From positions 248,001 to 312,000 of the forward strand of contig JAQGDQ010000133.1 of NCBI GenBank assembly GCA_030141605.1: a DNA stretch of 64,000 bases, in the 5' to 3' direction. This document shows positions 32,170 to 53,929 of the stretch, piece after piece (position 1 is the first letter of the stretch; every line of letters starts with the position of its first letter). The notes beneath the pieces were generated by a model. The model did no database searches and was not told the origin of the DNA. It was given only the letters and a program-made list of their open reading frames with translations. Origin of the DNA: Tubiluchus corallicola. Lineage: Eukaryota; Priapulida; Priapulimorpha; Priapulimorphida; Tubiluchidae. Made by a program: the position numbers and the translations under genes.

Positions 32170-32272
32170 ATGGCTATTAGAAAGTATTTGTGCTTTTTAA
32201 ATATTTTATTTCATTTGTGCTTTGTAGTGCTTCAATGTGTTACTCAAGAAACTGAGCAGGATAACACACAAC
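32170..32272 (+). CDS. Exon 1: signal peptide
   Basis: [20 protein letters not shown] and following residues: a basic start, a hydrophobic core and a polar [10 protein letters not shown] end, typical of a secretory signal. The donor is C|GTAAGCAC, leaving phase 1. An ATG followed immediately by a signal peptide supports this start. Confidence 0.85.
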
Positions 32273-53200: not shown

Positions 53201-53929
53201 ATAGATAAGCATTCCTGCCTTAACCATTACGCGACTAAAACAAATGCCATTTTTAACACTGAGACAATACTTAATTTTTGAAAAGCATTTGTTTCCAACA
53301 CTTTTTGTTTTTACGTTATTTCAGATATCACAACAGAAGTTTCACTTACCACACCGTTAAGCTCATCAACAGCGTTTGATTCAGTAGTAACATCAAAGAC
53401 AGCAACCCAGGGAACTACTGCTAGACGACGAAGGCAGACCACGCCTCCTCGAGCACAGACCTATCTACTAGTAACCTCAAGGTCTACTCTAAGACAAACA
53501 ACACCACCACGACGACCACCGCTTCCACCACCATCAAGACGACCACCACCATCACCACCACGACGTCCACAATCGCCATCATCTACAAAAATAACAACAG
53601 CCACAAGATTCCCAAGATTAACTTTAACTACAGCAACAAAAACTTCAATTGTCTCGAAGTCAACAATATCAACAAAGTCGTCACCTGTAGTAGGTACAGC
53701 AGAAACGCCTGCTGCTTTAGCTTCACTTGGTGAACAAGAGACGGGTAAAAAGGGCAAGAAAGTCGCCATCATCATAGGTTCTTTCAGCGCACTTGTTATA
53801 ATCATTGTTATTGCTTACTTTGTATTTAGAAGGGCGAGGCGACGCACGTTTGCAAGAGGGTGGAGTGCTAATATTGATGATGATTTGCACTATCTGACAT
53901 ATGAAGACGACGAGTCTCACACTTTGTGA
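32170..53929 (+). CDS. Type I membrane protein with CCP, MAM and TSP1 domains (18 exons, 1,192 aa)
   Basis: Exons: 32170-32272, 37921-38121, 38555-38722, 39248-39418, 40058-40192, 41213-41352, 41770-41875, 42433-42618, 43278-43856, 44147-44239, 44772-44963, 45480-45644, 46555-46722, 48509-48646, 49938-50074, 50721-50829, 51052-51234, 53325-53929. They total 3,579 nt, and every junction is GT-AG and in phase. Order: signal peptide; CCP1 and CCP2 (about 45-157); MAM1 (about 165-341); two TSP1 (342-463); acidic then Thr-rich linker (464-627); CCP3 and CCP4 (628-746); MAM2 (747-930); TSP1 (931-991); Thr/Pro/Arg stalk; transmembrane helix (about 1137-1158); short tail. CCP, MAM and TSP1 are extracellular binding and adhesion modules, so a cell-surface adhesion or recognition receptor is likely. 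The ligand is unknown. An extra exon in the 5.6-kb first intron cannot be excluded. Confidence 0.92.
32273..37920 (+). other. Intron 1 of the CCP/MAM/TSP1 gene (5.6 kb)
   Basis: The longest intron in the gene. It holds a (CACG)n run (35,577-35,611), a 13-G run (36,503-36,515), a tRNA-like SINE fragment near 35.9 kb and an (ATC)n-like tract just before exon 2. The short frames inside it show no domain. Confidence 0.75.
37921..38121 (+). CDS. Exon 2: CCP (sushi) domain 1
   Basis: Four Cys in CCP order ([26 protein letters not shown]) with the conserved NGDV and Trp. Phase 1-1, 201 nt. The acceptor at TTGGCAG is chosen because the alternative ten bases upstream runs into a stop. Confidence 0.93.
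38555..38722 (+). CDS. Exon 3: CCP domain 2
   Basis: [30 protein letters not shown] and IPEC give the full four-Cys CCP pattern. Phase 1-1, 168 nt. The acceptor CCAAG|CAAGCGG is weakly pyrimidine-rich. The other AG, four bases later, would break the frame. Confidence 0.93.
38733..38800. repeat. (GGT)n microsatellite in intron 3
   Basis: About eight GGT units followed by GTTGAT/GTTGGT variants, starting some ten bases after the donor of exon 3. Confidence 0.9.
39248..39418 (+). CDS. Exon 4: MAM1, part 1
   Basis: [14 protein letters not shown], then DWDRHRL and GTGPSFDHT: the classic start of a MAM domain (Cys, Phe-Glu, Leu-Cys-Gly-Trp). 171 nt, phase 1-1. Confidence 0.92.
40058..40192 (+). 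CDS. Exon 5: MAM1, part 2
   Basis: [11 protein letters not shown], then RLYSPPFP and [10 protein letters not shown], the MAM core strands. 135 nt, phase 1-1. Confidence 0.92.
40970..41165. repeat. Degenerate (ATC)n tract in intron 5
   Basis: ATC/GTC/ACC triplets for about 190 bases, ending 50 bases before exon 6. Confidence 0.85.
41213..41352 (+). CDS. Exon 6: MAM1, part 3
   Basis: HLNVYIQ, then [17 protein letters not shown]: the MAM L-x-V-x and W-x-x-x-x-V strands. 140 nt, changes phase from 1 to 0. Confidence 0.92.
41613..41750. repeat. Degenerate (GTT/GTC)n tract in intron 6
   Basis: GTT then GTC triplets with interruptions, ending about 20 bases before exon 7. The Asn/Asp minus frame is the repeat being translated. 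Confidence 0.85.
41770..41875 (+). CDS. Exon 7: MAM1, part 4
   Basis: [20 protein letters not shown], then GLCSNYPP, the end of a MAM domain with its last Cys. 106 nt, phase 0 to 1. Confidence 0.9.
42433..42618 (+). CDS. Exon 8: TSP1 domain 1
   Basis: [20 protein letters not shown], with the following Cys and a final EPCPG. The C-x-x-T-C-G O-fucosylation context is present, but the Trp ladder is shortened (WxxW only). 186 nt, phase 1-1. Confidence 0.93.
43278..43856 (+). CDS. Exon 9: TSP1 domain 2 plus acidic linker
   Basis: [20 protein letters not shown] is a canonical WxxWxxW/CSxSCGG type 1 repeat, ending SQPC. About 130 more residues follow: a Gly/Pro/Thr stretch, then an Asp/Glu/Asn-rich segment read largely from GAT/GAA triplets. 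Unusually long for a TSP1 exon (579 nt). Phase 1-1, donor G|GTAAGGAT. Confidence 0.93.
44147..44239 (+). CDS. Exon 10: Thr/Pro-rich linker
   Basis: 31 codons rich in Thr, Ser and Pro ([15 protein letters not shown]), a likely O-glycosylated spacer between the two halves. The donor ATAG|GTTCTA is weak. The exon keeps phase 1-1, so it could be skipped without a frame change. Confidence 0.7.
44302..44405. repeat. (GA)n microsatellite in intron 10
   Basis: About 50 pure GA units starting some 60 bases after the weak donor of exon 10. GA-rich sequence returns at 44,600-44,680. It accounts for the Arg/Glu (+) and Ser/Leu (-) frames. Confidence 0.97.
44772..44963 (+). CDS. Exon 11: CCP domain 3 with basic leader
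   Basis: Starts [16 protein letters not shown], then [19 protein letters not shown] and PPFCAG: a full four-Cys CCP preceded by a strongly basic run. 192 nt, phase 1-1. Confidence 0.92.
45480..45644 (+). CDS. Exon 12: CCP domain 4
   Basis: [32 protein letters not shown] and PFCQ. 165 nt, phase 1-1. It is closest by eye to CCP2 (exon 3), as expected if the CCP pair was duplicated. Confidence 0.92.
45965..46380 (-). mobile_element. Composite repeat R1/5S-like SINE, inverted copy in intron 12
   Basis: Read on the minus strand, it matches 55,245-55,560: GGATCACTGCGCCATTTACA (5' end), TAGCTCTGTAATCGCGGTAA, then CCTGATTAGTAGATGGTCGA and CGGAAATGCTGG. The middle resembles 5S rRNA (CCTGGTTAGTACTTGGATGG). 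Near 46,090 it has an extra segment not in the other copy, containing ATATTGGC and its complement. Confidence 0.75.
46555..46722 (+). CDS. Exon 13: MAM2, part 1
   Basis: [13 protein letters not shown], then [13 protein letters not shown] and GTGPQHDHT. 168 nt, phase 1-1, equivalent to exon 4. Confidence 0.92.
46783..46808. repeat. 26-bp perfect palindrome
   Basis: Perfectly self-complementary with a TACATATGTA centre, 60 bases into intron 13. Function unknown. In AT-rich DNA some palindromes are expected, though 26 bp is long. Confidence 0.95.
48215..48498. repeat. Degenerate (ATTC/ATTT)n tract in intron 13
   Basis: TCATTCATT and CATTTATT variants recur up to the polypyrimidine tract of exon 14. 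The unit is similar to the purer array at 62,650-62,790. Confidence 0.7.
48509..48646 (+). CDS. Exon 14: MAM2, part 2
   Basis: [11 protein letters not shown], then RIFSPIF and [12 protein letters not shown], closely parallel to exon 5 ([10 protein letters not shown]). 138 nt, phase 1-1. Confidence 0.92.
   Translation, partial: AFTSWLKPAPRSGKITQLAFSRPSLKQLPMEAVVSSSGITCMGKV
49298..49334. repeat. (CA)n microsatellite in intron 14
   Basis: CACACACGC followed by a CA run. Confidence 0.9.
49480..49530 (+). mobile_element. tRNA-like SINE fragment in intron 14
   Basis: CTGGTAGCCCGGTTAGGTTCAAATTCAGTCTG contains a pol III B-box-like GGTTCAAATTC and resembles the fragment near 35,930 (GCCCGTAGCTCAAATTCAG). 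Partial and diverged. Confidence 0.35.
49938..50074 (+). CDS. Exon 15: MAM2, part 3
   Basis: [11 protein letters not shown], then [11 protein letters not shown]. 137 nt, phase 1 to 0, equivalent to exon 6. Confidence 0.92.
50721..50829 (+). CDS. Exon 16: MAM2, part 4
   Basis: [20 protein letters not shown], then YHENCPDP, the MAM end with its final Cys. 109 nt, phase 0 to 1, equivalent to exon 7. Confidence 0.92.
51052..51234 (+). CDS. Exon 17: TSP1 domain 3
   Basis: [20 protein letters not shown], with [13 protein letters not shown] and LGEC. CSRTCG is an O-fucosylation context. The first Trp is replaced by Tyr, so only one Trp of the ladder remains. 183 nt, phase 1-1. Confidence 0.93.
51440..52115 (+). 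repeat. Degenerate 40-55-bp minisatellite in intron 17
   Basis: About a dozen diverged units of the form AACTGTAACGTGGCCTTTTC then TTAAGAAAAG and a GTACATA-like spacer. Each unit carries a TTCTTAAGAA-type dyad. Clear units start near 51,509, 51,556, 51,754, 51,799, 51,867, 51,907, 52,048 and 52,085. The Lys/Phe-rich minus frames here (51,433-51,743) are the repeat being translated. Confidence 0.85.
53325..53929 (+). CDS. Exon 18: stalk, transmembrane helix, cytoplasmic tail
   Basis: A Thr/Ser stretch, an ARRRRQ site (about residue 1023), a Pro/Arg-rich stretch ([16 protein letters not shown]), more Ser/Thr, then [20 protein letters not shown] and the rest of one transmembrane helix. The stop-transfer RRARRRTF and a 34-residue tail ending DDESHTL follow, with the acidic tyrosine motif YLTYEDDE. 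Stop TGA at 53,927. Confidence 0.93.

Follow-up and report, generated by a model that had tools for sequence, protein, structure and literature searches.

A predicted surface receptor with a doubled CCP-MAM-TSP1 cassette, similar in layout to class C scavenger receptors

The gene at positions 32170–53929 (forward strand) of the analysed window, a stretch of 64,000 nucleotides of DNA, is on balance, if only just, read as encoding a surface receptor that spans the membrane once and is of the same kind as the class C scavenger receptors (SR-C), but doubled. The predicted protein consists of a signal peptide, two CCPs, a MAM and two TSP1 domains, an acidic linker, again two CCPs, a MAM and one TSP1, a Ser/Thr-rich stalk, one transmembrane helix and a tail of 33 residues. 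Membership in SR-C is not proven; one half of the protein follows the SR-C plan.

All 18 exons (Table 1) were rebuilt from the window, and their in-phase splicing yielded 1,192 codons followed by a TGA stop at 53927–53929, with GT-AG boundaries in 17 of 17 introns. At the composition of the window, the chance of 1,192 stop-free codons is about 10^-38, a number that applies to exons picked post hoc; independent support for the exon model comes from nine curated domain matches and from the intron columns shared by the two MAMs. Nine domains scored above the Pfam gathering thresholds, namely two MAMs (cut-off 26.4 bits), four Sushi and three TSP_1, each of the Sushi and TSP_1 domains being scanned as a single exon. 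Hydropathy above 1.6 in 19-residue windows was observed only for windows starting at residues 2–8 and 1134–1145. Hydropathy and composition are consistent with type I topology, a signal peptide and a single transmembrane segment. The sequence-only reading of this locus is thereby borne out in its 18-exon, 1,192-codon in-phase model, in its signal peptide and transmembrane helix, and in its domain order with the cassette used twice.

Table 1. Exons of the predicted receptor gene, with positions in the window.
Feature	Position	Strand	Content
Exon 1	32170..32272	+	Start codon, signal peptide, first mature residues; N-terminal hydrophobic segment
Exon 2	37921..38121	+	CCP (sushi) a1; Pfam Sushi 26.8 bits (cut-off 20.7); phase 1-1
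Exon 3	38555..38722	+	CCP a2; Pfam Sushi 30 bits; phase 1-1; weak acceptor and donor, domain clear
Exon 4	39248..39418	+	MAM a, part 1; Pfam MAM 134.7 bits across exons 4-7
Exon 5	40058..40192	+	MAM a, part 2; within the MAM match of exons 4-7
Exon 6	41213..41352	+	MAM a, part 3; end phase 0; within the MAM match of exons 4-7
Exon 7	41770..41875	+	MAM a, part 4; within the MAM match of exons 4-7
Exon 8	42433..42618	+	TSP1 a1; Pfam TSP_1 34.1 bits (cut-off 21.6); O-fucose and C-mannose consensus motifs
Exon 9	43278..43856	+	TSP1 a2, then start of the long acidic linker; Pfam TSP_1 43.7 bits
Exon 10	44147..44239	+	31-residue Ser/Thr/Pro linker piece; doubtful/optional; poor donor; phase 1-1
Exon 11	44772..44963	+	CCP b1, strongly basic, after KPKKKKKRR lead; Pfam Sushi 32.1 bits
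Exon 12	45480..45644	+	CCP b2; Pfam Sushi 32.5 bits
Exon 13	46555..46722	+	MAM b, part 1; Pfam MAM 138.4 bits across exons 13-16
Exon 14	48509..48646	+	MAM b, part 2; within the MAM match of exons 13-16
Exon 15	49938..50074	+	MAM b, part 3; end phase 0, like exon 6
Exon 16	50721..50829	+	MAM b, part 4; within the MAM match of exons 13-16
Exon 17	51052..51234	+	TSP1 b; Pfam TSP_1 30.1 bits
Exon 18	53325..53929	+	Basic Ser/Thr/Pro-rich stalk, RRRR furin-like site, transmembrane helix, 33-residue tail, stop

The stalk contains 35% Ser/Thr, and exon 18 gave no Pfam match at E 0.001. The C-x-x-[ST]-C-G consensus for O-fucose is present in all three TSP1s. Net charge singles out CCP b1 at +12 (pI 11.0), the other three CCPs having +2, −2 and −2. 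Somatomedin B was searched for in the protein with Pfam and in six frames of the whole window with a simple CxC-C-CC pattern, and no match was found in either search. The window contains no RNA genes at Rfam gathering scores and no tRNA according to ARAGORN.

The affinity of the MAMs was assessed against PDB chains, which represent only the few MAM families with solved structures. Searched separately, MAM a and MAM b both had Spodoptera SR-C (8yt7) as the top match (137.5 and 140.8 bits, respectively), followed by MDGA1 (110.4 and 109.4 bits). In an all-against-all comparison SR-C had the MAMs of the gene as its best partners (140 and 137 bits), but this relation does not single out SR-C, as it also holds for MDGA1 (115 and 113 bits) and for enteropeptidase (84 and 82 bits). 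The best tree of five MAM sequences pairs SR-C with MDGA1 rather than with the MAMs of the gene, at low support (25/41), and none of the five topologies was rejected by the AU test. These data bear on a different reading, which we consider rather unlikely though the closest competitor: the protein would be an adhesion, guidance or matrix-contact receptor with a role nearer to MDGA, neuropilin or BAI-type proteins, and its likeness to SR-C would reflect convergent shuffling of widely used modules. The second place of MDGA1 and the failure of the tree to separate it from SR-C agree with such a role, as do the matches of the TSP1s to thrombospondin-1, properdin and UNC5 chains; passages of one paper also describe CCP/TSP1 proteins and MAM-bearing neuropilins that act at synapses (PMC9083331). 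What speaks against it is the lead of SR-C over MDGA1, about 30 bits in both independently searched copies, as well as the arrangement of the modules. Two N-terminal CCPs directly before a MAM, combined with a Ser/Thr stalk and a transmembrane segment, are to our knowledge a plan of SR-C only.

Splice sites were scored with a crude leave-one-out matrix built from 16 sites and ranked among all GT or AG sites of the window. On this scale 14 of 17 donors and 11 of 17 acceptors fell into the top 10%. Poor donors were those of exons 10 (top 61%), 3 (28%) and 16 (19%), and poor acceptors those of exons 3, 8, 5, 9, 7 and 12 (from 64% to 12%). All exons with poor scores hold domain sequence, with the exception of exon 10. 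The latter is doubtful: its donor is poor, it contains no domain, and the frame still closes when it is skipped, the protein then having 1,161 codons. The same region is where the locus would divide if it produced two transcripts, a secreted first half ending after exon 9 and a separate or alternative membrane-anchored second half. If the frame is read past the donor of exon 9, it hits a stop after 7 residues, an AATAAA lies downstream at 43948, a Met in frame, together with a hydrophobic stretch, is found just upstream of exon 11, and secreted class C forms, SR-C3 and SR-C4, have been described (PMC4493455). Nonetheless, we regard the division as quite improbable, given that the exon 9 donor (ACGGTAAGG) ranks in the top 2.3% and the exon 11 acceptor in the top 0.7%, both in phase 1, that the first half has no transmembrane segment of its own, and that the hydrophobic stretch is probably a chance reading of the polypyrimidine tract.

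The whole cassette is present twice as a phase 1-1 exon block. Introns within the two MAMs occupy identical alignment columns (52, 98 and 153) with the same phases. The identity of the two cassettes across the alignment, exon 8 being left out, is 38%, and that of CCP a2 and CCP b2 is 39% (z 15.3). Less favourable to a doubled SR-C are the identity of the two MAMs, 43%, which does not exceed that of either to Spodoptera SR-C (46% and 45%), and the slightly higher score of CCP b1 against CCP b2 than against CCP a1. The predicted duplication of the entire CCP-CCP-MAM-TSP1 cassette would be old. We searched 2,906 open frames of at least 15 residues on both strands of the window with profiles made from the gene's own CCP, MAM and TSP1 domains, and no additional pieces stood out (next best E 0.76). 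We consider it very improbable that the doubled order stems from an assembly error or from the merging of two adjacent genes: it was seen in a single window, with the weak exon 10 in the joint region, but the cassettes have diverged too far for a duplication introduced recently in assembly, they share a single signal peptide and a single transmembrane segment, and the window holds no further copy.

As a receptor of the SR-C kind, the protein could serve in pattern recognition or as a scavenger receptor, in the following way. The CCP and MAM domains would attach to surfaces of microbes or of altered self, with a polyanion-binding face supplied by the basic CCP b1 and the polylysine lead before it; the charge of this domain resembles scavenger-type chemistry and, with the lead, is suggestive of polyanion binding. 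The TSP1s may contribute contacts and length, and two heads per chain would raise avidity. Uptake of the bound particles into the cell could follow, as published for SR-C of Drosophila and shrimp; traits that go with class C are the binding of polyanions or microbes and their uptake by phagocytes. The cytoplasmic tail lacks a dileucine motif, and its sole YxxPhi match is YFVF at the membrane edge, so that this uptake rests on analogy. The RRRR site of the stalk could permit shedding. The term "recognition receptor" proposed by the sequence-only reading fits such a protein, which may be a candidate for a gain of avidity in an animal without antibodies, since a single chain would bear a pair of binding heads, of which one is very basic.

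Other known systems share single modules with the gene. The MAM of MDGA1 is 39–40% identical to its MAMs. MDGA1 is, by its name, a GPI-anchored protein, with Ig domains, and is not known to have a CCP or TSP1 cassette. The predicted protein gave no Ig match at E 0.001 and has a transmembrane segment and a cytoplasmic tail instead of a GPI anchor; hence the assignment to MDGA or other MAM-Ig adhesion proteins was rejected. Properdin and thrombospondin-1 have TSP1 repeats of similar sequence; both are secreted and are not known to have CCP-MAM or a transmembrane segment. Passages on sushi-thrombospondins and cnidarian TSR proteins describe sushi or TSR modules in combination with other modules, among them new TSR domain orders and a transmembrane protein made of TSRs only (PMC6526912, PMC5446238), and the CCP2-MAM-TSP1 order does not occur in these passages. 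Sushi-thrombospondins share with other thrombospondins a C-terminal region of EGF, type 3 and L-lectin modules, whereas neither half of the protein gave a Pfam match to EGF, type 3 repeat or L-lectin at E 0.001, and the thrombospondin superfamily, sushi-thrombospondins included, was rejected. The cassette alignment and a 24-base repeat pattern had no relative in a collection of bacterial and archaeal genomes, nor did a scan of viral genomes find one; both collections are without animals and thus silent on distribution.

The claim that no named family has this architecture stands in part. The full domain order was absent among the matches listed in open-licence literature, but CCPs followed by MAM, a Ser/Thr-rich region and a transmembrane segment make up the SR-C plan, and SR-C is the best PDB match of the MAMs. 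In the available parts of the sources, class C is described as having an N-proximal CCP region ahead of the MAM (PMC4493455), with two CCPs in Aedes and Drosophila SR-C (PMC3983052) and a single annotated one in Anopheles SCRC1 (PMC11359365). Spodoptera SR-C is given as a signal sequence, CCP, MAM, somatomedin B, a Ser/Thr-rich region and a transmembrane segment (PMC6191154), and shrimp MjSRC as two CCPs, one MAM and a transmembrane segment, without somatomedin B (PMC5222524), which indicates that the latter domain is not essential to class C. The gene differs from the arthropod members described there in its second cassette, where they have a single one, in its three TSP1s, in the lack of somatomedin B, in its long acidic linker and very basic CCP b1, and in its length, 1,192 residues versus 320–629 in insects (PMC4493455) and 692 in MjSRC (PMC5222524). 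The TSP1s, the absence of somatomedin B and the old duplication of the whole cassette appear to be what is new here.

The same passages consider class C to be the one scavenger receptor class that is restricted to insects and without mammalian orthologues (PMC4493455), or to occur in a few invertebrates, with a later description from shrimp (PMC5222524). Should the host not be an arthropod, an SR-C-like gene of this doubled, TSP1-containing form would move the origin of class C earlier and would show the modules of the class swapped by phase 1-1 exon shuffling. A more specific proposal, which we hold to be unlikely, is a two-headed SR-C lineage outside arthropods, where TSP1s would replace somatomedin B, an ancient cassette duplication would have produced one near-neutral and one basic CCP head with two binding faces, and shedding would be of the furin type. 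In that case class C would be far older than "insects only", and the insect form may be reduced. With dSR-CI, Sf-SR-C, AaSR-C and MjSRC, as far as the passages at hand describe them, the predicted protein shares type I topology, N-terminal CCPs followed by a MAM (here in both halves), a Ser/Thr-rich region, a single transmembrane segment and a tail, and its MAMs are 45–46% identical to that of Spodoptera SR-C.

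The predicted surface-receptor gene was reassembled by hand from the genomic sequence as a set of 18 exons. Joined in phase, they give a single frame of 1,192 codons, as the sequence-only reading had claimed; the frame is closed by a TGA stop, and all 17 introns have GT-AG borders. Fifteen of the 17 junctions are in phase 1; the remaining two, one in each MAM domain, are in phase 0. With a GC content of 32–38% (4-kb steps) and a spliced multi-domain gene, the window resembles animal DNA. Splice sites were scored by a leave-one-out matrix built from only 16 sites and ranked against all GT or AG sites of the window; by this measure 14 of the 17 donors and 11 of the 17 acceptors fall in the top 10%. 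The weaker sites are six acceptors (exons 3, 5, 7, 8, 9 and 12) and the donors of exons 3, 10 and 16. Every exon with a weak site contains conserved domain sequence, with the exception of exon 10, a 31-residue linker piece. Given that exon 10 has the poorest donor (top 61%), contains no domain and leaves the reading frame intact whether present or absent, it is perhaps optional or mispredicted; without it the frame comes to 1,161 codons. A long GA/CT microsatellite lies beside this doubtful exon, and two others are found elsewhere in the window. Read-through past the donor of exon 9 encounters stops after seven residues and, together with the AATAAA that follows, makes possible a secreted short form ending near position 43948.

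Pfam matched Sushi, MAM and TSP_1 in each half of the protein. The CCP and TSP1 domains, seven in all and each encoded by one exon, scored above their curated cut-offs when scanned individually, and the MAM domains scored 134.7 and 138.4 bits (cut-off 26.4). The proposed order of nine domains, with the cassette used twice, is supported. The signal peptide and transmembrane (TM) helix proposed earlier agree with the hydropathy profile, which has an N-terminal segment, a single TM segment and no window above 1.6 elsewhere. Profiles of the gene's own domains, run against 2,906 open frames (at least 15 residues) on both strands of the window, revealed no extra CCP, MAM or TSP1 pieces (next best E 0.76). 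The first CCP of cassette B (CCP b1) has a net charge of +12 and pI of 11.0; the other three CCPs have +2, −2 and −2. The protein contains 15 N-glycosylation sequons. C-x-x-[ST]-C-G, the O-fucose motif, is present in all three TSP1s, and W-x-x-W, the C-mannose motif, in both TSP1s of cassette A. The stalk has a furin-like site, RRRR, at residue 1025.

Positions of the gene, its protein segments and other features (nt, window nucleotides; aa, protein residues)
Feature	Position	Strand	Description
Microsatellites	nt 14074-14184; 15463-15633; 44300-44405		GA/CT; the last in intron 10
Open frame	nt 21986-24154	+	723 codons, Ser/Thr-rich, apparent C-terminal coiled coil
LINE-like open frame	nt 29251-30136	-	
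Receptor gene	nt 32170-53929	+	stop 53927-53929
Read-through past exon 9	nt 43857-43948	+	AATAAA at 43948
Exon 10	nt 44147-44239	+	
Inverted repeat, 203 bases	nt 46178-46380; 55239-55441		intron 12; downstream of gene
GABA-B-receptor-like exon	nt 56376-56702	+	probable first coding exon
LINE-like open frame	nt 57264-57602	+	
Signal peptide and short lead	aa 1-44		
Cassette A			CCP-CCP-MAM-TSP1-TSP1
Linker	aa 465-627		net charge −15
Lead before cassette B			13 residues, net +9, two-residue overlap with next domain
Cassette B			CCP-CCP-MAM-TSP1
Stalk	aa 992-1137		35% Ser/Thr, net +19
Tail			33 residues

Around the gene, the 723-codon frame is probably one large exon belonging to an adjacent gene; its only Pfam match, CC2-LZ, is sub-threshold (18.6 bits, cut-off 35.3). 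The GABA-B-receptor-like exon scores 24.8 bits with ANF_receptor, just below the cut-off of 25.4, and its best PDB matches are GABA-B receptor subunit 2 (the six leading residues of the query are inexact and lie outside the match). The arms of the inverted repeat are 95% complementary, and it is probably a recent short mobile element. Two open frames resemble, by eye, decayed fragments of LINE-type retrotransposons; three frames scanned gave no Pfam match at E 0.1.

Cassettes A and B share 38% identity across the alignment, from which exon 8 was excluded. The introns of the two MAMs occupy the same alignment columns (52, 98 and 153) in the same phases, positions that could alternatively be inherited from MAM domains in general. 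CCPa2 clearly pairs with CCPb2 (39% identity, z 15.3). CCPb1 is slightly closer to CCPb2 (z 12.9) than to CCPa1 (z 10.4), and hence the CCPb1–CCPa1 pair does not help the case for duplication. The TSP1s of cassette A are 50% identical to each other, compared with 36% (a1) and 41% (a2) to that of cassette B; cassette A may therefore have acquired an additional TSP1 afterwards. Since the identity between the MAMs (43%) is no higher than that of either to the MAM of the Spodoptera class C scavenger receptor, SR-C (46% and 45%), the duplication is, judged by sequence divergence, old.

In the first PDB search (best 60 of 84 matches) the top match was 8yt7, “Scavenger receptor SR-C-like protein”, which PMC11203654 describes as the SR-C MAM domain of Spodoptera frugiperda. 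Searched alone, MAM a scored 137.5 bits with 8yt7, followed as next families by MDGA1 (MAM domain-containing GPI anchor protein 1) with 110.4 and enteropeptidase with 85; the respective values for MAM b were 140.8, 109.4 and 80. This SR-C lead of about 30 bits over MDGA1, in a database that covers few MAM families, is the best evidence for SR-C likeness that sequence comparison offers. The best topology of a five-sequence MAM tree joins SR-C to MDGA1, but with low support (25/41), and the AU test accepts each of the five topologies tested. Moreover, not only SR-C but also MDGA1 and enteropeptidase have their best partners in the gene's MAMs. For these reasons, and given the few MAM families in PDB, we do not assert formal SR-C membership; the product is built like an SR-C and probably works like one.

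What is observed directly is the architecture, together with the charges and the duplication. As for the mechanism, the CCP and MAM domains would bind ligand, the basic head (cassette B) would prefer polyanions, and two heads per chain would give higher avidity; the TSP1s would lengthen the ectodomain and supply further contacts, and the receptor would take up the bound ligand. Apart from YFVF next to the membrane, the tail has no standard endocytic motif; uptake would therefore depend on a partner or on some non-canonical signal.

In Spodoptera SR-C, somatomedin B sits between the MAM and the Ser/Thr region; it was not found in this gene. This is not decisive against SR-C, as shrimp MjSRC is described with two CCPs plus one MAM and a TM, and without somatomedin B (PMC5222524). 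MjSRC is reported to form a trimer via CCP and MAM and to be internalised with beta-arrestin2 and clathrin (PMC5222524). The parts given for Spodoptera SR-C are a signal sequence, CCP, MAM, somatomedin B, a Ser/Thr-rich region and TM (PMC6191154); its role as Vip3Aa receptor is disputed (PMC11203654, PMC6191154, PMC9224979), which has no bearing on this gene. According to PMC4493455, class C has an N-proximal CCP region ahead of the MAM, exists in membrane-bound and secreted forms and is reported from insects only, and the ability to bind and internalise acetylated LDL can be conferred by SR-C1. Aedes SR-C, which has two CCPs, is reported to interact both with a complement-related protein and with dengue virus (PMC3983052). 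For Anopheles SCRC1 the annotation gives a single CCP, a MAM and a C-terminal part rich in threonine (PMC11359365). No relatives were found in prokaryote and viral collections, and no protein with the whole domain order was seen among the matches listed from open-licence full-text literature, which is weak evidence of absence. The earlier claim that no named family has the full order stands in part: CCPs ahead of a MAM, a Ser/Thr-rich stalk and a TM form the core plan of SR-C, which this gene shares, whereas its doubled cassette and TSP1s go beyond that plan.
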